A stretch of 45,447 nt of DNA from IMG/VR virus record IMGVR_UViG_3300019132_000016, positions 1-45,447 of that record, one strand, 5' to 3'. Source of the DNA: a virus. The notes below the pieces were generated by a model that did no database searches, had not been told where the DNA came from, and saw only the letters and a program-made list of their open reading frames with translations. Shown here piece by piece: positions 3,173-45,398 of this stretch. Each line of letters opens with the position of its first letter. Positions within the stretch are counted from its first letter, which is position 1. The position numbers were made by a program, and so were the translations under genes.

Positions 3173-4225
3173 ATGCTCGACAAAACTACCCATGCGGTCA
3201 CTGAAAGTGATGTGATCACGTTCTATAGAATCATGCTGGGTCGGGAGCCGGAGGGCCCGGAAGCAATTGCCCCGCATCTCCAGCACGGCAGCGCAGCCGA
3301 ATTGCTTGCAGCCATCGCCTCAAGCGAGGAGTACCAGCGCCGCATCAACCCGCCTGGCTCGGGGCAGCCCTACCTCACAGCAGGAACCGGCAATCTTTAT
3401 GTTCCAACGGAAGTCTTTGCCGGGACCTATGCCGGCGAGTACATGCCAGCGTCAATTCCGCTTGCAAGCGACTTCATGCACCCAGAATTCAGCCGATTCC
3501 TGGAGGGGATCAGGCACCCATTCCAGATTCATCGAAAGATTTGGGAATTCGCGTACATAGCGCATCATCTCGAGCGGATGGGGGCGCTTGGCCCCGGCAA
3601 GCGAGGACTGTGCTTTGGGGCCGGCGAGGAGCCGCTACCTGCCTTTTTTGCCAAGCGGGGAAGCCATATCGTTGCCACAGACGCTCCCGCTGAAATTGTA
3701 CTAGGTAAGTGGATTGAGACCGCTCAACACTCAGACAACATTGGAAAGCTGGCCAAGCCGGAGATAATTGACAATAAACTCTTCACCGAGCGGGTGACGT
3801 TCGAACCTTGCGACATGAACGCTATTAGCCCGCACTTGAAGGAATTCGATTTCTGCTGGTCGGCCTGTTGCCTCGAGCACCTAGGGAGCTTACGGCATGG
3901 CCTCGACTTCATCATCAACAGCGTCGAGAAGACCCTGAAAATCGGAGGCGTGGCCTGTCACACTACAGAGCTGAATCTCTCATCTAACGAAGATACCCTG
4001 GAATCGGAGCATATGTCTCTATTTCGGCGTCGTGATCTGGAAGAGTTGATTGAAGATCTGCGGAGGCGCGGGCACGAGGTACTGCCTCTTGTTGTTACTC
4101 CCGGCGCGACCCCGATCGATCACTACATTGACCTACCTCCGTATCTAAACGACCCGCACCTAAAGCTCCGTCTAGGTGGGTTTGTGTCTACTTCGGTTGG
4201 CATTGTAGTAAGGAGAGGCCGCTAG
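3173..4225 (+). CDS. SAM-dependent methyltransferase with DUF4214-like N-terminus (cargo)
   Basis: The 350-residue protein starts with a segment, FYRIMLGREPEGPEAI at about residues 16-32, like the DUF4214 repeats found in glycan-modifying and surface proteins. A class I methyltransferase fold follows: motif I is around GLCFGAGEEPLP (about 145-156), an acidic strand end at ATDAP binds SAM, and the CCLEHLG stretch near 232 is post-motif. It is read against the surrounding lysis and tail genes, so it has its own transcription. A TTGACA lies at 3117-3122, but I see no convincing -10. Methylation of a surface glycan during lysogeny is an inference; the substrate is not shown. Confidence 0.78.
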   Translation: MLDKTTHAVTESDVITFYRIMLGREPEGPEAIAPHLQHGSAAELLAAIASSEEYQRRINPPGSGQPYLTAGTGNLYVPTEVFAGTYAGEYMPASIPLASDFMHPEFSRFLEGIRHPFQIHRKIWEFAYIAHHLERMGALGPGKRGLCFGAGEEPLPAFFAKRGSHIVATDAPAEIVLGKWIETAQHSDNIGKLAKPEIIDNKLFTERVTFEPCDMNAISPHLKEFDFCWSACCLEHLGSLRHGLDFIINSVEKTLKIGGVACHTTELNLSSNEDTLESEHMSLFRRRDLEELIEDLRRRGHEVLPLVVTPGATPIDHYIDLPPYLNDPHLKLRLGGFVSTSVGIVVRRGR

Positions 4226-17893: not shown

Positions 17894-18946
17894 TCAGACC
17901 AAAATGAAGTCTGTATGCTTGAGTTTTAAGTTTGCGCTAATTTGTGCGAACTGTTTAGACGCTGCAGGCCCAGTGCCATCAGGATCGTAGTAAAGTCGCC
18001 CGTCGTCCCTATCGTAGATAATGCGATCTGATCTATCGTGGGCCTTACCGCTGGAGCTTGCCCAGTAAGCGTTCTTACTTAAAGTTTCTCCAGCGCCAAC
18101 TTTCGGAAAAGCTGAGCGGAAAAGATAGATGTAATCGTGTTTGACGTTGAAATCTAAGATCTTGTCAATGTTTGTTCTCGAAGGCTTTTCGGCGAAGACA
18201 AATCCATCGTATCCAGAGCCACCTCTCAGTGCATCTTTGCCAGCACCGCCAAAAAGTAAGTCATCGCCGTTGCCCCCAGAGAGCGTATCATTGCCTCCCA
18301 TCCCAAACAAAGAATCGTCTCCTCCTAAGCCATAGATCTTGTCATTGCCATCAAATCCATAAATATTGTCGTCACCGTCTGTCCCGTAAATAATGTCCGA
18401 CCGATTGGTTCCATCAATATCTGCTTCGTTTACGGGTGGCTGTTCTCCACCTGTGTTGGGCTGGGTCGTCTGCCATTCCCAAACATCTAGGCTAAGGGTG
18501 TATCCCAACTGGGACGGAAAGCCGCCGTCGATATTACGAATATCAACCTTGATGATGTAGTCACCAGCACCTACACCCCACTCTGCCTCGACGCCGAACG
18601 TTGTATTCGGACTTGGGAAGCGCACAGCTTCAGATCCGACAGCCTCCTGTCCAACGGTTTGGCCACTCAGAACAGTAGCGTTCAGAATGGTTGCCTCGTA
18701 CTGAACAGCGATGTTGTTTGCGTTGTCGGTCCAATCAATCTTCAATCGTACCTTAGTTACGCCCTCAGGTACAGAAAATTTGAAGTAATCAACCGGATCG
18801 ATATCGGACGAGTTCGAATTTGCGCTATCAATTTCAATAAAATTATTAGAGAAAATCGGATAAACGGACTGATAACCTGGCGGCATAACTGCCCCAAGGT
18901 ATGTTGCAGTCTCGGGCGTATCGTTGCTTCCAAGGCGGTCAGACAT
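17894..18946 (-). CDS. RTX calcium-binding secreted protein (cargo)
   Basis: The 350-residue product has a beta-type N-terminal domain (DPVDYFKFSVPEGV, GDYIIKVDIRN) resembling pre-peptidase C-terminal-like modules, then six or more nonapeptide RTX repeats of the GGxGxDxLxG kind at about 185-250, which bind calcium. The C-terminus ends HTDFILV, like type I secretion signals of RTX proteins. There is no signal peptide, and no transporter gene here, so export would rely on the host. ATG at 18946 has GGAG upstream. It interrupts the head-tail order and is visibly AT-richer than its neighbours, which points to a recent insertion. It could instead be a virion decoration protein. Confidence 0.82.
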   Translation of the reverse strand: MSDRLGSNDTPETATYLGAVMPPGYQSVYPIFSNNFIEIDSANSNSSDIDPVDYFKFSVPEGVTKVRLKIDWTDNANNIAVQYEATILNATVLSGQTVGQEAVGSEAVRFPSPNTTFGVEAEWGVGAGDYIIKVDIRNIDGGFPSQLGYTLSLDVWEWQTTQPNTGGEQPPVNEADIDGTNRSDIIYGTDGDDNIYGFDGNDKIYGLGGDDSLFGMGGNDTLSGGNGDDLLFGGAGKDALRGGSGYDGFVFAEKPSRTNIDKILDFNVKHDYIYLFRSAFPKVGAGETLSKNAYWASSSGKAHDRSDRIIYDRDDGRLYYDPDGTGPAASKQFAQISANLKLKHTDFILV

Positions 18947-19150
18947 CAGTTTTTCTCCGATAGAGCCGCACTCTTCCATTTTCGTAACGCAGGACTGGGC
19001 AGTGGGTCGTTTCAATACGACATCAGATCGAAATGTTTTTATACTACCCTTGTGGCTTAGTAGGCTGGACTAGGGCCTGCATCTCGTGCGCATACAGGCT
19101 AGGTCGATACCACAACCACATCGCGGCGGTTCGCAGCCCCTAAATAGAAA

Positions 19151-30010: not shown

Positions 30011-30213
30011 CATGCACCTCTGAAAATGAGAACATAATGGGAACATCGGCCTACCCCTGGGTCAACCTGACACATCTACCAAAGGGTTGTGGATATCGTG
30101 AACAAACGATGAACGCCAGGACGCCACACCCTTCCAATCAACCACACATGAGATTGCAAACCTCTTGCACGGTAGACATCCAAAGAAGCAGAATAGGAAA
30201 AAAGGGGGGCACA

Positions 30214-31362
30214 ATGCCGTTCTATATTCGCAAATCGATCAGTGCTGGCCCGTTTCGCTTCAACCTTTCAAAAAGTGGCGTCGGACTGTCGGTCGGCATC
30301 AAAGGTCTTCGGGTCGGCGTTGGTCCGCGAGGGCATTACATCCACGCTGGACGCGGAGGCCTTTATTACCGTGCCTCGCTTGGCCCTGCCGGGCAGAGGC
30401 CTCGAAGTACACAACAAGCGCTAGACCTCCAAAACGTCGACCGTACTCAAGTAGAACCGCAGCAGAGTGTTCGCGCACATCCTGATGTCGAGATGATTGA
30501 AGTCGACTCAGGCGATGTCTTAGCCATGCGGGATGAAAATTTCGCAGAACTCCTTGATGAGATTAATCAGAAGAAATCTCAGGTATCCTACACAGGGGTT
30601 TTCACGTTATTGGCTCTTGGCCTAGGGCTAATTGCGCTGTTCGCATTCGGCTCAACAGGCGCCTACGCGTTCGCGCTGTTACTTCCAGCATGGGGTCTTG
30701 GGGGCTGGCTCGACAGCTACAAGCGAACTTCTGTACTTTTCTATGACTTGGATAACGAGGCAACTGCAGCTTATGAGGCGGTTACAGGTGCATTTGATAA
30801 TCTGATGGCATGTGCCGGAAAGTGGCACGTTTCATCTGGCGGAGCCGTTCGGGATCTCACGACATGGAAGCGCAATGCCGGCGCTGGTCACATCGTAAAC
30901 AAGAGCCCGACGACCCTCAGTTATGCCGCACCAAGCTTCATCAAAACCAACATCACCCCGCCATCTGTGCGAGTAGGGCGTCAGACGATTTACTTCTTTC
31001 CCGATGCGTTATTCGTTGTTGACGGTCAGCGCGTCGGAGCGGTCGGATATACCGAACTCAATTTAAGCTGGCAGGACACGCATTTCATCGAAGAGGGCAG
31101 AGTTCCGGCTGACGCGCAGGTTGTCTACCACACATGGAAACATCCGAACAAAGGCGGCGGCCCGGATCGCCGCTTTGCAAACAACTATCAGATCCCTGTT
31201 TGCCTCTATGAAGTGCTCCATCTCACTAGCCCTTCAGGCCTCAACGAGCTGCTCGAATTCTCTCGAACCGGATTCTCCGAGGCGTTTCAGCGGGCGATAA
31301 CGGAGCTTGCTTGGCGTACGGGGCAAACGGGCGTGAAACGTATCGCATCAACAGGGCGGTAA
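30214..31362 (+). CDS. DUF4236 membrane protein (cargo)
   Basis: A 382-residue protein. Residues 1-52 (MPFYIRKSISAGPFRFNLSK, then GVGPRGHYIHAGRGGLYYR) are a typical DUF4236 domain. Two hydrophobic segments at about 130-165 (FTLLALGLGLIALFAF, AYAFALLLPAWGLGGWL) form a probable membrane hairpin, followed by a soluble region of about 200 residues. ATG at 30214 has a strong AAGGGGGG site. It is read against the early operon and AT-richer than that operon, so it is likely cargo. Its position and membrane hairpin permit a role in superinfection exclusion, but no function is established. Confidence 0.8.
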   Translation: MPFYIRKSISAGPFRFNLSKSGVGLSVGIKGLRVGVGPRGHYIHAGRGGLYYRASLGPAGQRPRSTQQALDLQNVDRTQVEPQQSVRAHPDVEMIEVDSGDVLAMRDENFAELLDEINQKKSQVSYTGVFTLLALGLGLIALFAFGSTGAYAFALLLPAWGLGGWLDSYKRTSVLFYDLDNEATAAYEAVTGAFDNLMACAGKWHVSSGGAVRDLTTWKRNAGAGHIVNKSPTTLSYAAPSFIKTNITPPSVRVGRQTIYFFPDALFVVDGQRVGAVGYTELNLSWQDTHFIEEGRVPADAQVVYHTWKHPNKGGGPDRRFANNYQIPVCLYEVLHLTSPSGLNELLEFSRTGFSEAFQRAITELAWRTGQTGVKRIASTGR

Positions 31363-37807: not shown

Positions 37808-38032
37808 ATGTCCGACACTCACATCACCGCCGACGACCTGGCGGCCACTCTCACAGCCTTCGCGATTGGCTTCGTGGCTGCGCTCAACACGCCCGGCTCG
37901 AAGAAGCCGAACGAGATCCTTGAAACCCTGGCGAACGAGCTGGATGACTTCGCCAACAAGGCGCCGGGCACCCCGGCCGCCGAAGCGCTCCAGATGAGCG
38001 CGCGAATGCTGATGGCCTCGGAACCCCGGTGA
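37808..38032 (+). CDS. Small hypothetical protein
   Basis: A 74-residue protein starting MSDTHITADDLAATLTAFAI. Its central part is amphipathic helical. ATG at 37808 has a GGGGTCTCC stretch upstream. It lies between the two regulatory regions and faces the cro-like gene. Role unknown, possibly a regulator of lysogeny. Confidence 0.6.
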   Translation: MSDTHITADDLAATLTAFAIGFVAALNTPGSKKPNEILETLANELDDFANKAPGTPAAEALQMSARMLMASEPR

Positions 38033-38416: not shown

Positions 38417-38445
38417 CTTCTACCCCCTGAGTGGTTGGCCGTCAA
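38417..38445 (-). promoter_or_regulatory. Early promoter of the cro-like gene
   Basis: On the minus strand a -35 box TTGACG (38445-38440) is followed by a 17-base spacer and TAGAAG as the -10 (38422-38417). Operator sites 1 and 2 overlap the -10 and -35 boxes, so a bound repressor would block it directly. Confidence 0.75.
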
Positions 38446-38485
38446 TACCCCCAATGTGGTCGCGAGGTTTTACCCCGCGCGTAGT
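38421..38485. promoter_or_regulatory. Three 15-bp operators at 25-bp spacing
   Basis: TACCCCCTGAGTGGT (38421), TACCCCCAATGTGGT (38446) and TACCCCGCGCGTAGT (38471) share TACCCC, one C/G, three free bases, then GTRGT, and start exactly 25 bp apart. The pattern is a weak palindrome (ACCCC/GTGGT). This matches the three-operator layout of a lambda-type right operator. Confidence 0.78.
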
Positions 38486-38496
38486 AAGTTGGTATC

Positions 38497-39234
38497 ATGA
38501 CGATCAGAGCAGATAGAGTCAGGCAGCTCCGCCAAGAAAAAGGCTTGTCACAGCAGGCTTTGGCTAATGCCGCGCGTGTCAGCCAAACGACTATCGATAA
38601 AATTGAGAACGGCCGTTCCCTCACCAGTCGTGCGATACACCGAATTGCGCAGGTGCTGGGAGTTGAAGCATCAGAGTTGGACCCAGAGGTCGGTGCACTG
38701 ACCGCGCCGCACATCCGCCCGTGGCGGGACAACGCACCCGACGCAGACAATGGCATCGTGCTTACTCATGCGGAACATGAGGCGTTTAAAGTCGCAAACG
38801 ACATGCGTGTCCTTGAGAGGGCGGCGGCCATTGGCGGCGAAATTGCCCTACTTGGGGCGGCTGAAGGAGGGGCTGGCGCCCTCAAGATCTCTCAGGATCC
38901 GATTGGAACTGTCGCAAGGCCCCCTGCTCTTAATGGGGTACACAATGCCTATGCGGTGTACGTTGTAGGGACTTCGATGGAGCCTGAGTTCGAGCATGGC
39001 GACGAGGCTTACGTTAATCCGAAGCTCCCGCCGATCCCCGGTTCTACCTGCATCTTCTATACCAACGACCCGCATGATGATCGGGCAATGATTAAGCGCC
39101 TGGTTCGGGTGACGGCCGACGAATGGCACGTGCGACAGTGGAACCCACCTGAGGGTCAGGATCGAGATTTTACCGTCAGTCGCGCTGATTGGCCTGTCTG
39201 CCATCGCGTGGTCGGGAAGAACTACAGGCGTTAG
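38497..39234 (+). CDS. cI: CI-like repressor with S24 peptidase domain
   Basis: A 245-residue repressor. Residues 5-60 are an Xre helix-turn-helix (LRQEKGLSQQALANAARVSQ then TTIDKIENG). Residues 145-245 are LexA-type S24: Ser160 in VVGTSMEPEF and Lys200 in AMIKRLVRV are the catalytic pair, so it should cleave itself after DNA damage. The ATG is 12 bases after the third operator, with only a weak -10 (TAGTAA at 38482), so the message may be leaderless like lambda cI from PRM. It keeps lysogeny by occupying the operators. Confidence 0.92.
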   Translation: MTIRADRVRQLRQEKGLSQQALANAARVSQTTIDKIENGRSLTSRAIHRIAQVLGVEASELDPEVGALTAPHIRPWRDNAPDADNGIVLTHAEHEAFKVANDMRVLERAAAIGGEIALLGAAEGGAGALKISQDPIGTVARPPALNGVHNAYAVYVVGTSMEPEFEHGDEAYVNPKLPPIPGSTCIFYTNDPHDDRAMIKRLVRVTADEWHVRQWNPPEGQDRDFTVSRADWPVCHRVVGKNYRR

Positions 39235-39261
39235 CGAAGGCCCGGTTAACAACTTAGGGGG

Positions 39262-39286
39262 TTGACACACTTACCCCTCAAGTTTT
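39262..39286 (+). promoter_or_regulatory. Repressor-controlled promoter of recombination operon
   Basis: TTGACA (39262-39267) is followed by a fourth operator-like site, TACCCCTCAAGTTTT (39272-39286), inside the spacer; no strong -10 is seen (TTAGCG at 17 bases). An AGGGG stretch just upstream of TTGACA makes the region palindromic. Likely the left-type early promoter for the operon that starts at 39315. Confidence 0.6.
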
Positions 39287-39314
39287 AGCGTCTCTCCATC
39301 CACAGGAGAGGCGC

Positions 39315-39674
39315 ATGTTCACGCACCCCGACACCAGTATTGAAACCTACCTCGACCGGATTGACGCCCGTCTGGCGACGATGACCGACGACGGCGACAA
39401 GGCCGTCTTTCTGAACCTCTGCATCGGCAGCACCGAGCGGAAGCGCGAGAAGTTCGAGGAGACCCTCGATCCGCGCTACGGCGACGCAATCCAGATCAGC
39501 GAGATCCTCGCCGGCCTTCACGCCCGCCATGCCGACGTCCTCGCGAGCATCAAGGCTCGCGTCACACAGGCCGAGGAGCAGATCACCAAGCCCGAGTTCG
39601 CTGGAATGGTCTCGGCGTTCCACGCCCGCCGCCTCGGCTTCGAGTTGGCGCCCCAGGCTGAGGAGCGCGTCTGA
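39315..39674 (+). CDS. Hypothetical early protein
   Basis: A 119-residue, helical and charged protein starting MFTHPDTSIETYLDRIDARL, first of the right-arm recombination operon. GGAGAGG precedes the ATG. No family recognised. Its stop overlaps the next start by one base, so translation is coupled. Confidence 0.65.
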   Translation: MFTHPDTSIETYLDRIDARLATMTDDGDKAVFLNLCIGSTERKREKFEETLDPRYGDAIQISEILAGLHARHADVLASIKARVTQAEEQITKPEFAGMVSAFHARRLGFELAPQAEERV

Positions 39675-39910
39675 TGGCGCACTTCCACGATCCCAGCGCA
39701 CACTGCGTCGAAGCCATCAGAGCGGAATCCGTCGCCCTCAGCGATAGCCACTGCCTAACACTCAACCTGTCAGGCGCGAGCTACTACGGAGAACAGCAGA
39801 AGGCGAAGTTCAACCTCTTCATGCCCACCGAATTGGCTGGGTATGCCCGCGCCATCGCCGCCGCGATCAACGCCGTGCCGGTGCCTGAGAAGGTGGAGGA
39901 GGCGGCGTGA
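39674..39910 (+). CDS. Hypothetical early protein
   Basis: A 78-residue protein (HFHDPSAHCVEAIRAESVAL, SGASYYGEQQKAKFNLFMP). The second segment looks like a beta-strand with a helix after it. No family recognised. It overlaps the genes on either side. Confidence 0.62.
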   Translation: MAHFHDPSAHCVEAIRAESVALSDSHCLTLNLSGASYYGEQQKAKFNLFMPTELAGYARAIAAAINAVPVPEKVEEAA

Positions 39911-40155
39911 TGGAGCAGCAGGGGCCCAACGTCACTGATCCCGAAGCGCGCGCCCTCCTTGCCGCATCAGACGCGGCAATCGGCGCCGGCATGGAACTCC
40001 TCACGTCCGTCCGTGATGGACGTGTCCCCGACACTGAGGAAACGGTCCGCGCCCTCTCCGACGCGATCCGCCTCGTGCTCTCGCAATACCCAGGACCGGA
40101 GGACGCCAACCAGCTCCTCGGAGCCGTGCTCCGGTACCTCGACGAGGAGGCCTGA
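39910..40155 (+). CDS. Hypothetical early protein
   Basis: An 81-residue, acidic and helical protein (MEQQGPNVTDPEARALLAAS). ATG at 39910 or the GTG one codon earlier can be the start; the preceding stop overlaps both. No family recognised. Confidence 0.6.
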   Translation: MEQQGPNVTDPEARALLAASDAAIGAGMELLTSVRDGRVPDTEETVRALSDAIRLVLSQYPGPEDANQLLGAVLRYLDEEA

Positions 40156-40156
40156 C

Positions 40157-40264
40157 ATGCCGCCCGCCTCCCCTTCCGAGCGGCGCGCTGAGGCCATCGC
40201 CGCGGTCACCATCACCCTTTTTGCCGCCGCCCTGATGACGGGCTCTTGGTGGATAATGCAATGA
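40157..40264 (+). CDS. Single-span small membrane protein
   Basis: A 35-residue product: a basic start (MPPASPSERRAEAI), then one transmembrane helix (AVTITLFAAALMTGSWWIMQ). It lies one base after the preceding stop and overlaps the RecE-like start (ATGCAATGATC), so it is embedded in the operon. It has a good GAGGAGG upstream. Function unknown. Confidence 0.6.
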   Translation: MPPASPSERRAEAIAAVTITLFAAALMTGSWWIMQ

Positions 40265-41214
40265 TCGACAAGCCCGGTTTCTACGCGGACATGCCGGCAG
40301 ATCAGTACTATGCTGATCCGTGCGTCCAGCCTTCCCTCTCCTCATCCATCGCAAAGGTGCTGCTCGAGCAGAGCCCGCTCCACGCCTGGTACTGCCACCC
40401 ACGGTTCAATGAGCAGCAGGAGAGCGAGCCGACCCGCCCGAAGGAGATCGGCACGGCCGCGCACAAGCTCGTGCTGGGCAAGGGCCGCGACGTCGTCGTG
40501 ATCGACGCTGACGACTACAAGAGCGGCGCCGCGAAGGCAAAGCGCGCCGAAGCCTATGCGTCCGGGCATGCTCCCATCCTCCGCGCCGACCTCGCTAAAG
40601 CGGAGGGCATCGCCAATGCCGTGGCCGAGCAGATCGGCGGCATTGAGGGCTGCGAAGGGTTCGCCAGCGCGACGCCCGAACTCGTCGCGATCTCGCAGGA
40701 TCCGCTTGGGCCCTGGCTCCGGGTTATGATCGACAAGTTCGAGGACCACGGCGACCATGCCGTGATCTGGGATGTGAAGACCGGCGAGCAGTCAGCCGCG
40801 CCGCATGGTATCGGCCGCCGCATCGCCAACCTGAGCATGGAGATCCAGGCGGGGCTCTATGAGCGCGTCGTCGTGAACCTGCGCCCCGAGCTGGCCGGCC
40901 GCGTCCGCTTCCGCTGGCTGTTCGTAGAAAACGATCCGCCCCACATGCTCCTGCCGGTGGAGCTCGACAACGTCGGCATGGAGATCGGCCGCCGCAAAGC
41001 CGCCGCCGCTATCTCGATCTGGCAGCGCTGCATCGAGACCGGCTTTTGGCCCGGCTACCCGAACCAGATCATCCAAGCCGAATACCCGCCGTACATGGCG
41101 TCCTCGTGGGAGTTCCGCGAGACCGAGGACCCGGCCCTTGCTGGCGTCGTCTATGGGCGGCCCGGCGTCATCGTCCGCAAGCCCGTCGAACAACTGGACA
41201 TCATCGCACCATGA
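40261..41214 (+). CDS. RecE/ExoVIII-like exonuclease
   Basis: A 317-residue protein of the DUF3799 type (MIDKPGFYADMPADQYYADP). The PD-(D/E)xK core is visible: His68 in GTAAHKL, Asp158 in RVMIDKF, and Asp171-x-Lys173 in VIWDVKTG. It digests one strand from DNA ends to give 3' overhangs for annealing. The ATG at 40261 overlaps the small membrane gene stop. The Sak4-like ATPase follows with ATGA overlap, so they form a recombination pair. Confidence 0.85.
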   Translation: MIDKPGFYADMPADQYYADPCVQPSLSSSIAKVLLEQSPLHAWYCHPRFNEQQESEPTRPKEIGTAAHKLVLGKGRDVVVIDADDYKSGAAKAKRAEAYASGHAPILRADLAKAEGIANAVAEQIGGIEGCEGFASATPELVAISQDPLGPWLRVMIDKFEDHGDHAVIWDVKTGEQSAAPHGIGRRIANLSMEIQAGLYERVVVNLRPELAGRVRFRWLFVENDPPHMLLPVELDNVGMEIGRRKAAAAISIWQRCIETGFWPGYPNQIIQAEYPPYMASSWEFRETEDPALAGVVYGRPGVIVRKPVEQLDIIAP

Positions 41215-42197
41215 CCTTCACGTTCGCACCCGCGAAGCGCGAGCGCGTTTCGCTCCTCATCGCCCTGGCTGGAGCTTCCGGCAGCGGCAAGACCTATTCC
41301 GCCTTAGAACTGGCAACCGGCATGTCGCCCGAGGGCAAGATCGCCTTCATCGACACGGAAGCCCGGCGCGGCCTGCACTACGCCGACCGGTTCACCTTCA
41401 TGCATTCGGACATGCGGCCGCCCTTCCGACCGGAGCGGTTCATCGAAGGCATCCGAGCAGCCGAAGCCGCCGGCGCTGAGGTCGTGATCATCGACAGCTT
41501 CAGCCACGAGTACGACGGCGAAGGCGGCATCATGGACTGGGCAGACGAGCTGGCGGAGCGCGGCGTGAAGTCTCCGGGCAACTGGAAAGACCCCAAGCTC
41601 GCGCACAAGAAGATGATGAACGCCCTGCTCCAATGCCGAGCGTCTCTGATCTTCTGTCTCCGAGCCGACGAGAAGATCGAGATCGTGCGCGAAGGCGGCC
41701 GGACGCAGGTCCGCCCCCTCGGCTGGATGCCGATCTGTGAGAAGCGCTTCATGTACGAAATGACGGCGAGCTTCACGCTCACACCTGATCGCCCGGGCCG
41801 TCCGAACTTTAATCTGCCCCACAAGCTGCAGGATCAGCACCGCGGCATGTTCACCGAGGCCGAGCCGATCTCGCGCAAGTCCGGCCAGCTGCTTGCCGAG
41901 TGGGCCCGTGGCGGATCCCCCGTTCCCTCCCGCCGAGAAGACCTGACGCATTCTCGGCCAACTACCGCGCCCGGGTCCGTCCCCCCGGCTGGCTCGGGCG
42001 CGGACTTTCCGGGAGACGAGCCGCCGATGGATCCGCGTGTCGCCGCGATCATCGACGATGCTCGGCTCGTGGCTGAAGAGGGATTGGGCCGGTACCAGGA
42101 GTTCTTCAAAGGTCTTGCCCGCGACGTCCGGCAAGCCCTCGTCGACTCTGGTGTACACGAGAAGCTGAAGGTCAAAGCCGAGAAGTCAGGCCCATGA
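41211..42197 (+). CDS. Sak4-like recombination ATPase (AAA_24)
   Basis: A 328-residue protein with Walker A GASGSGKT (21-28) and Walker B-like strand EVVIIDSFSHEYDG, in the phage AAA_24 (RecA-like core, Sak4-type) pattern. It should assist single-strand annealing with the exonuclease encoded just before. After residue 240 there is a Pro/Ser-rich linker, and the C-terminal region is helical. The ATGA overlap with the exonuclease gene supports coupled expression. Confidence 0.82.
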   Translation: MTFTFAPAKRERVSLLIALAGASGSGKTYSALELATGMSPEGKIAFIDTEARRGLHYADRFTFMHSDMRPPFRPERFIEGIRAAEAAGAEVVIIDSFSHEYDGEGGIMDWADELAERGVKSPGNWKDPKLAHKKMMNALLQCRASLIFCLRADEKIEIVREGGRTQVRPLGWMPICEKRFMYEMTASFTLTPDRPGRPNFNLPHKLQDQHRGMFTEAEPISRKSGQLLAEWARGGSPVPSRREDLTHSRPTTAPGSVPPAGSGADFPGDEPPMDPRVAAIIDDARLVAEEGLGRYQEFFKGLARDVRQALVDSGVHEKLKVKAEKSGP

Positions 42198-42202
42198 CGC
42201 CC

Positions 42203-42234
42203 CAAAGAAAAAGGCCTCTGTTTCCAGCGGCCTT
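42203..42234 (-). terminator. A-tract hairpin 1 (minus-strand terminator form)
   Basis: AAGGCC T CTG / CAG C GGCCTT (42211-42234) folds with a 4-base loop. On the minus strand the stem is followed by TTTTTCTTT, the form of a rho-independent terminator for transcription coming from the right. Confidence 0.6.
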
Positions 42235-42391
42235 AGGTGACAGAGGACCTCACTCTGTACAGGGAACTGGCCCGGACATGGATCCGAGTCAGGCAATGGG
42301 TGTAACGCCTAGAGCCAAGAAAATGAAATTAAACTTCCTGATGGCACCCATGAGCGCAACGCATTCCATAGAGCCGACGCTCGGAAGCACG

Positions 42392-42421
42392 CAAAGAAAA
42401 AGGCCGCCCTTGCGAGCGGCC
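42392..42421 (-). terminator. A-tract hairpin 2 (minus-strand terminator form)
   Basis: GGCCGC / GCGGCC (42402-42421, 8-base loop) with TTTTTCTTTG after it on the minus strand. It has the same orientation as hairpin 1, and both face transcription from the xis/int side. Confidence 0.6.
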
Positions 42422-42568
42422 CAAAGTTTAGGGAGGAAACGCGCCCAAAGCGGGCGCACCGCCACAGAGCGACGGCATGCGCGCCTTCTACCTGCGCCTG
42501 TCGTTGAGCGGCACCCCCTGATTGATCAACCAGGTCATGCATTAAGCGCACATCGGTAGGAGCGCGGA

Positions 42569-42826
42569 ATGGGGAAGGTCAGATCCGATCAGCCAATGCC
42601 GCTCTATCCCACGGAGGACCAGATCGCACAGGCGGTCCTTCCTCCGGGCAACGTGAAGTCCTGGGACGGAATCGCCGCCGTCCTGGAGAAGCGCGGGTTC
42701 CCGAAGGTCGATCCGCTCTTTGGCGGCCGCTACTGGCCGGCCGTGAAGGCCTTCCTCGACAGACGTCACGGACTCGCGGACGCTACCCCAGCGAAGGAGC
42801 CGGATGGGGAGGAGAACTGGGGATGA
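42569..42826 (+). CDS. Excisionase-like small protein
   Basis: An 85-residue protein that precedes the integrase with a 4-base overlap. PTEDQIAQAVLPPGNVKSWD then VLEKRGFPKVDPLFGGRYWP may form a winged helix, similar to AlpA/Xis proteins. Small basic proteins in this place usually direct excision. The assignment is from position and size. Confidence 0.65.
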   Translation: MGKVRSDQPMPLYPTEDQIAQAVLPPGNVKSWDGIAAVLEKRGFPKVDPLFGGRYWPAVKAFLDRRHGLADATPAKEPDGEENWG

Positions 42827-44073
42827 GCAACGATACCGATCTGCACGCGCCAGGCCTGAAACGGATGAAGCGCCACAATGGGCGCATCGATCTTTACTGG
42901 GTCGCGGACGAGGAGCTCGTAAAGAAGGGCTACCAGCCGAAGACGGTCCGGATCCACGGCCTCGACTGGAACCTCGAAGCCGACCGGGTGGAGATCGCCG
43001 CCATGTGCCGGCGCTTCCAGGCCGAGATGCTGGAATGGGCTGGGGGCGCCGAGACGTCCAAGAACCCACACGGACATGGGACGGTCGCCTGGGTGGCAGT
43101 CGCGTTCGAAACCGACGAGGACAGCCCCTATCACGAGAAGCGCCGGGACACTCAGATCTTCTACAGCCGGTACATCAAGACCATCATCAAGACGGTCGGG
43201 AAGCGACGCATCGCGGAGATCACCGGGACTGACCTACGGCGCTGGCACAAGAACTGGACTGCCGCCCATGGCTCCCGGAGCGCCTATGCGTGCATCCAGA
43301 CCTTCCGCCGGGTGATCAGCTACGGCTGCGAGCTGAAGGACGATGACTGCTTGAAGCTGGCCCAGGTGCTCGAGCGGATGGAGTTCGCCTCCCCCAAAGC
43401 CCGGAAGAAGCGCCCGACCTTTGAGCAGATCGTCGCGTTCCGGGAAGCCGCACACGAAGCCGGGCGCCCGTCCCTCGCCTTGGCCGTTACCCTTCAGTTC
43501 GACTTGGGCCTACGCCAGAAGGATGTCATTGGCGAATGGGTAAAGCCGAAGCCAGAGGAGCGAGAGCGAATCAAGGGCGCGATCACGGACGGCGCTTGGG
43601 TCTGGGAATGGGGCCTCACCTGGCGCCACATCGACAGCAGCCTCGTCCTGAAGAAGCCAACCAGCAAATCCAACGGATCGGAGACGGCAGAGCACGACCT
43701 GAAGCTCTTCCCGGACATCATTACCGAAATCGCCCGGATCCCGGCCGAGTGCCGCATCGGGCCGGTGATCCTCGACGAGGGATCAGGACTGCCGTGGCGC
43801 AAGTCTCACTTCAGCCGCACCTTCCGGAAGATCGCCCGTAAGGCTGGGTGGCCGGATGACGTCTGGAACATGGACAGCCGCGCCGGTGCCGTGTCCGAGG
43901 CCTTCGAGGCCGGGGCGCAGGCCGAGGACGTCATGAAGGCCGCGTCTCACACCCAGCTCAGTACGACGATGCGTTACAACCGTGGCAAGATCGTCCAAAC
44001 CAGCCGAGTCGCTAAGCTCAGGCTCAAGCAGCGGCAAAGAAGCTTAAGCAATATCATTTCTCGCGATGAATAA
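42823..44073 (+). CDS. int: Tyrosine recombinase (phage integrase)
   Basis: A 416-residue integrase. The catalytic Arg231 is in LGLRQKD, Lys is near 278, the second Arg is Arg353 in MDSRAG, His376 is in ASHTQLS, and Tyr385 is in TTMRYNRG, all in order. The usual His of the HxxR motif is replaced by Met350 (MDSR), an odd change also possible in some families. An N-terminal arm-binding region lies before residue 200. It recombines the 50-bp att core in tRNA-Phe. Its end overlaps the end of the NTase gene by 20 bases. Confidence 0.9.
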   Translation: MSNDTDLHAPGLKRMKRHNGRIDLYWVADEELVKKGYQPKTVRIHGLDWNLEADRVEIAAMCRRFQAEMLEWAGGAETSKNPHGHGTVAWVAVAFETDEDSPYHEKRRDTQIFYSRYIKTIIKTVGKRRIAEITGTDLRRWHKNWTAAHGSRSAYACIQTFRRVISYGCELKDDDCLKLAQVLERMEFASPKARKKRPTFEQIVAFREAAHEAGRPSLALAVTLQFDLGLRQKDVIGEWVKPKPEERERIKGAITDGAWVWEWGLTWRHIDSSLVLKKPTSKSNGSETAEHDLKLFPDIITEIARIPAECRIGPVILDEGSGLPWRKSHFSRTFRKIARKAGWPDDVWNMDSRAGAVSEAFEAGAQAEDVMKAASHTQLSTTMRYNRGKIVQTSRVAKLRLKQRQRSLSNIISRDE

Positions 44074-45069: not shown

Positions 45070-45348
45070 ATGTCAGACTCCTTCACCGAAACAACGCAAA
45101 GAGACGTGTTCGGTTTCCCTCTCAAAGGCATATCGTGACAGTACGCACACCTCGTCAGGTCCGTCAATTAGACTACGAGATAAGGCGCTGCGAAATGTGA
45201 GATACCACCGGACTGGTAAAAACTTTGATTCAATTGAGCTGGGCTGAGCAGCAGTTGATTCTGATCCGACAAGCAAAGCAACGGTAACAACCGCGGTAAC
45301 ACTTCCAACCTGCCACTTCGAGATATGGCTGCTAAGCCATTGAAAAAT

Positions 45349-45398
45349 AATGGTGCCCAGGGGCGGAATCGAACCACCGACACTGCGATTTTCAGTCG
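45349..45398 (-). repeat. Right attachment site (core within tRNA-Phe)
   Basis: Identical to 50-99. It includes the anticodon arm, variable loop, T arm and CCA end of the tRNA plus two flanking bases. Since the phage copy restores the tRNA, this copy came in with the phage. Confidence 0.93.

Follow-up and report, generated by a model that had tools for sequence, protein, structure and literature searches.

A predicted lambda-like CI/Cro immunity switch with three OR and two OL operators in a probable prophage at tRNA-Phe

Do three equally spaced repeats between divergent cro-like and cI-like genes make up a switch of the lambda kind, and which other promoters would such a switch reach? The question is raised by IMG/VR record IMGVR_UViG_3300019132_000016, whose entire stretch of 45,447 nucleotides (the window) we analysed. 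The initial annotation had read there a three-operator switch between cI and cro, with two further sites at 39272 and 37771. Judging from the DNA and its comparison with other phages, we consider it very likely that the region is a lambda-like CI/Cro immunity switch, with predicted operators OR1-3 and OL1-2.

The window is bounded by a 53-nt direct repeat (98%; 47-99 and 45346-45398) which is part of tRNA-Phe, and its two copies are likely the phage attachment sites. Given these repeats and the integrase gene (Table 1), the window is most likely an integrated temperate phage. By its genes, the phage may be a podovirus, as initially annotated: the portal has its matches in phrog_332 and in phages including EXVC031P and MEP301, and the tail spike has a match too. 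The nearest annotated phage by portal is Microcystis phage Mwe-JY08 (L013; 67% identical), with a genome of nearly equal length, which we rejected as a relative of the switch, its immunity region being different and its switch unrelated. The stated host of Mwe-JY08 is cyanobacterial, and this may not be the true host. Among the other genes of the window, 30037-31362 (+) is a possible accessory gene: its product of 441 aa matches DUF4236 at the N terminus, and the neighbouring lytic genes lie on the other strand.

As in lambda-type switches, a CI-like protein (HTH and S24) and a Cro-like protein are encoded by divergent genes. The Cro-like protein matches Pfam PF15943 (E 3.4e-16; 59.2 bits against a curated cut-off of 30) and phrog_35 (E 3e-15), and its nearest solved structure is the Cro protein 3bd1 (E 5e-5). 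The repressor matches Pfam HTH_31 and Peptidase_S24, as well as phrog_4 (E 3.8e-28), and the 434 repressor is the natural phage repressor of solved structure nearest to its HTH. The start codon of cI is without an evident ribosome site and the gene is probably leaderless; the TAGTAA found directly before it likewise suggests a leaderless message. Just beyond cro, two frames overlap in opposite directions, 37808-38032 (+) and 38041-37715 (-). The former would be convergent with cro, and its 74-aa product is protein-like, though neither the phage collection nor Pfam returned a match. By reading, 37771 may lie in a short - strand frame preceded by AAGGAG.

Three sites fill the 88 bp that separate cro from cI. 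The pattern TACCCC[C/G]NNNGTRGT occurs there at 38421-38435, 38446-38460 and 38471-38485, always on the + strand and with spacings of 25 and 25 bp, just as initially annotated; a search of the whole window allowing up to one mismatch gave no fourth match. Against an expectation of 0.35 in the window, three matches were reached in 0 of 100 dinucleotide shuffles. Triples at equal spacing in which 10 or more of the 15 columns agree were also absent from 60 Markov simulations, and the real window has just two, the one at OR and a second near 18329. This second triple (about 18329-18397, 27-nt period, with the same minimum of identical columns) lies within the frame 17894-19015 and is probably a repeat inside coding sequence. 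As a unit, the putative operator reads best as an imperfect palindrome of 14 bp, ACCCC-N4-GTNGT.

A whole-window scan with a matrix made from the three sites had been proposed as a check. We built a symmetric 14-bp matrix from the OR sites alone and scanned the 45434 positions of the window. OR3 is as good a site as OR1 and OR2 (rank 3, 15.0 bits). The fourth best site, ACAACTTAGGGGGT (39249-39262), had been missed by the first reading; it lies in the gap after cI and ends on the first base of the TTGACA of PL. This is the predicted OL1. OL2, 24 bp away, ranks 14 and, taken alone, would be inconspicuous in the window. The core noted at 39272 does fall in OL2, at PL, but it is weaker than had been stated, with only TACCCC and GTTTT matching. 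Together, the two sites bracket the -35 and spacer of PL as a putative OL pair at the promoter of the recombination operon; as in lambda, a second operator cluster, here of two predicted sites, would sit at the PL of an early recombination operon. The other distal site, 37771, was dropped, its best frame ranking 98 of 45434 (3.55 bits). Hence, the five-site regulon keeps its number but not its membership, OL1 having come in and 37771 having gone out.

Table 1. Regulators, predicted operators and promoters, and genes of the operon read from PL. Positions are those of the window, except for the counterparts in the related record L004.
Feature	Coordinates	Strand	Remarks
cro-like gene	38408-38112	-	98 aa, YdaS/Cro family
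cI-like repressor gene	38497-39234	+	245 aa; N-terminal HTH and C-terminal S24
PR (for cro; predicted)	38417-38445	-	TTGACG 38445-38440, 17 bp, TAGAAG 38422-38417
PRM -10 (predicted)	38482-38487		TAGTAA just before cI
PL (recombination/integration operon; predicted)	39262-39290	+	TTGACA 39262-39267, 17 bp, TTAGCG
OR1 (predicted)	38422-38435	+	ACCCCCTGAGTGGT; fills PR spacer, touches PR -10; L004 counterpart 2927-2940
OR2 (predicted)	38447-38460	+	ACCCCCAATGTGGT; 1 bp upstream of PR -35; L004 counterpart 2952-2965
OR3 (predicted)	38472-38485	+	ACCCCGCGCGTAGT; overlaps predicted PRM -10
OL1 (predicted)	39249-39262	-	ACCCCCTAAGTTGT on - strand; matrix rank 4/45434; L004 counterpart 3723-3736
OL2 (predicted)	39273-39286	+	ACCCCTCAAGTTTT; fills PL spacer, touches -10; matrix rank 14; L004 counterpart 3746-3759
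Operon read from PL	39315-44073	+	small genes, then exonuclease VIII-like, AAA_24 ATPase, integrase
Exonuclease VIII-like gene	40246-41214	+	
AAA_24 ATPase gene	41046-42197	+	coordinates as listed
Integrase gene	42823-44073	+	

Our searches found a single close relative carrying the same recognition helix, SQTTIDKIE: IMG/VR record 2757320442_000001 (L004, or G001; 42.5 kb), which we scanned whole with the matrix of the window. By alignment, its repressor is 49% identical to that of the window, the helix being the same in both, and its divergent Cro-like protein is 54% identical. The OR and OL sites of L004 take matrix ranks 1, 2, 3 and 6 among about 42,500 positions. They show the same motif and lie two between cro and cI, with the counterpart of OR1 25 bp before O2, and two over PL after cI, 23 bp apart as against 24 bp in the window. 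The distances of O1 and O2 to both start codons are within 1 bp of those of the window. The third site is weaker in L004 (2970-2983, rank 17) and shifted by about 6 bp, with 18 bp rather than 25 between it and O2. The spacing looked for in relatives is therefore kept between O1 and O2 but not at the third site. Sites varying freely among relatives with the same HTH would have spoken against the initial annotation; in this one relative, both the motif and the paired OL are kept. Over the nine sites of the two phages the half-site reads A C [C/A] [C/A] C, with A1 and C5 present in 18 of 18 half-sites. The scan of the window and, independently, the related record support both the three-operator CI/Cro reading and a control by the switch over the promoter of the recombination operon.

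More distant searches gave little of this kind. When IMG/VR was scanned for patterns of two or three sites, unrelated repeats or the L004 contig came up and nothing else, and a direct repressor search in species-genome contigs gave weak matches only, mostly to the S24 part. The repressors found in 398 genomes of one phylum and 385 of one class were more distant, and SQTTIDKIE was absent from those read in these genomes (a reading that left out L091, L092, L093 and L095). The operator motif pattern was found in none of the 385 genomes of the class.

How do these sites relate to promoters? The promoter for cro under sites 1 and 2 had been called good. This is true of its -35, TTGACG, but its -10, TAGAAG, is mediocre, and a generic promoter scan did not list PR; both PR and PL have -10 elements that match the consensus poorly. 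In the window and in L004 alike (PR of L004: TTGACG, 17 bp, TTAGCG), O2 stops 1 bp ahead of the PR -35 and O1 occupies the spacer up to the -10. The -35 of PL is TTGACA in the window and TTGACG in L004, and in both phages OL1 overlaps its first one or two bases while OL2 fills the spacer to the -10. With operators identified by sequence and a predicted -10 for PRM, the window would thus have three operators overlapping PR and PRM, as lambda-type switches do.

The likeness to lambda lies in the divergent cI and cro genes, the three operators between them and the second cluster at the PL of the recombination operon. The centres of OR3, OR2 and OR1 are 18.5, 43.5 and 68.5 bp from the cI start, and those annotated in lambda 19, 42 and 66 bp. 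The lambda cI and CP-933P paaR2 messages are leaderless (PMC8630535), as the cI of the window probably is too. In contrast with lambda, whose operators have 17 bp, the sites of the window have 14 bp and ACCCC-type half-sites. Its Cro is of the YdaS family, its OL has two recognised sites where lambda has three, and its cro seems to start near its own transcription start.

Among annotated systems, the closest are Rhizobium phage 16-3, for the repressor and the OR/OL layout, and CP-933P, for YdaS as Cro. The C repressor of 16-3 is homologous to that of the window (26-30% identity over about 90% of the length). Its operators, taken from the GenBank annotation, are similarly placed, OR1-2 between C and the divergent gene and OL1-2 just downstream of C, and its PR is alike (TTGACG, 17 bp, TAGTTG). 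Yet, 16-3 has two operators per side, ACAA-N6-TTGT at OR (26 bp spacing) and ACAA-N4-TTGT at OL (17 bp), whereas the window has AC[CA][CA]C half-sites and three sites at OR; its operators are thus not of the immC type. In CP-933P (E. coli O157:H7), YdaS acts as Cro against the CI-like PaaR2 around a 97-bp intergenic region, and both YdaS and the CI analogue were footprinted (PMC8630535). Divergent CI-like and YdaS-like regulators, a leaderless repressor gene and a PL-like promoter are shared with the window; the four 18-bp inverted repeats reported there, of another motif, and the toxin-antitoxin genes inserted beside the repressor gene are not. By inspection, other YdaS-type loci also have repeated palindromes between both regulators, with other motifs.

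Which protein would use these sites, and how many of them? One might suppose that, although real operators, they serve chiefly or solely the YdaS/Cro-like protein, while CI recognises a different sequence or one that overlaps them. Between the window and L004, the Cro-like proteins resemble each other as the repressors do, and conservation of the motif therefore fails to separate CI from Cro; in CP-933P, moreover, the PaaR2 and YdaS footprints overlap without fixing the exact sequences (PMC8630535). Yet, among related repressors, by inspection, those with the SQPQ recognition helix are accompanied by ACCAAAATGG-like sites (RHph_Y25, Azospirillum and two genomes). Because these repressors have such sites instead, the motif appears, by eye, to follow the repressor. 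The 14-bp frame further matches the operators of 16-3 C, and the nearest natural phage repressor of solved structure is that of 434, whose operators this frame also matches. A main or sole use of the sites by the Cro-like protein is thus very unlikely. A recognition code within this repressor family is possible. The SQPQ-helix repressors of L072, L081, L096 and L097 have ACCAAAATGG-like palindromes in common close to their genes.

With two annotated operators on each side of 16-3 and the third site out of register in L004, the switch might have only O1 and O2, the third repeat being a non-functional or weak copy. This seems quite unlikely to us, for in the window the third copy equals the others in the matrix scan and its distance to cI is that of lambda OR3. 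Short direct repeats at fixed spacing are also known in replication and partition loci, but to see here iterons, a partition site or a chance G+C-rich repeat would disregard the palindromic symmetry, the placement over the divergent cro and cI promoters, the second pair at PL and the same arrangement in L004, and we find it extremely improbable.

Under the preferred reading, a CI/Cro switch with five operators, the region would work in this temperate phage integrated at tRNA-Phe like the switch of lambda. The 14-bp palindromes would be occupied by CI dimers, which at OR1 and OR2 would block PR, so that cro and the lytic genes read leftward would be turned off; from OR2, whose position is compatible with PRM activation, CI would be placed to possibly activate the weak PRM of cI. 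CI or the Cro-like YdaS protein, which may use the same sites, would block PRM at OR3, and the OL1-OL2 pair would block PL of the recombination/integration operon. Cooperative binding, an order in the filling of sites and looping between OR and OL might be part of this control, and, as the S24 domain is present, induction might proceed by its self-cleavage.

Since a geometry like that of lambda is combined here with a repressor from the 16-3 lineage, of which the annotated member has two operators per side, one might speculate that a site was gained at PRM and that the three-site layout is of independent origin. We think this possible, though on balance unlikely; if it were so, the shifted third site of L004 would mark either an intermediate state or a separate gain.

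The understanding of CI/Cro switches is unchanged by this example, which is a well-readable new case of a known kind of switch and not something new. What it offers, for a temperate phage that is not one of the model systems, is a complete and testable map of predicted operators, with five sites, two promoters and two regulators. Nearby repressors that differ in recognition helix and in operators could help to read a recognition code for the family.
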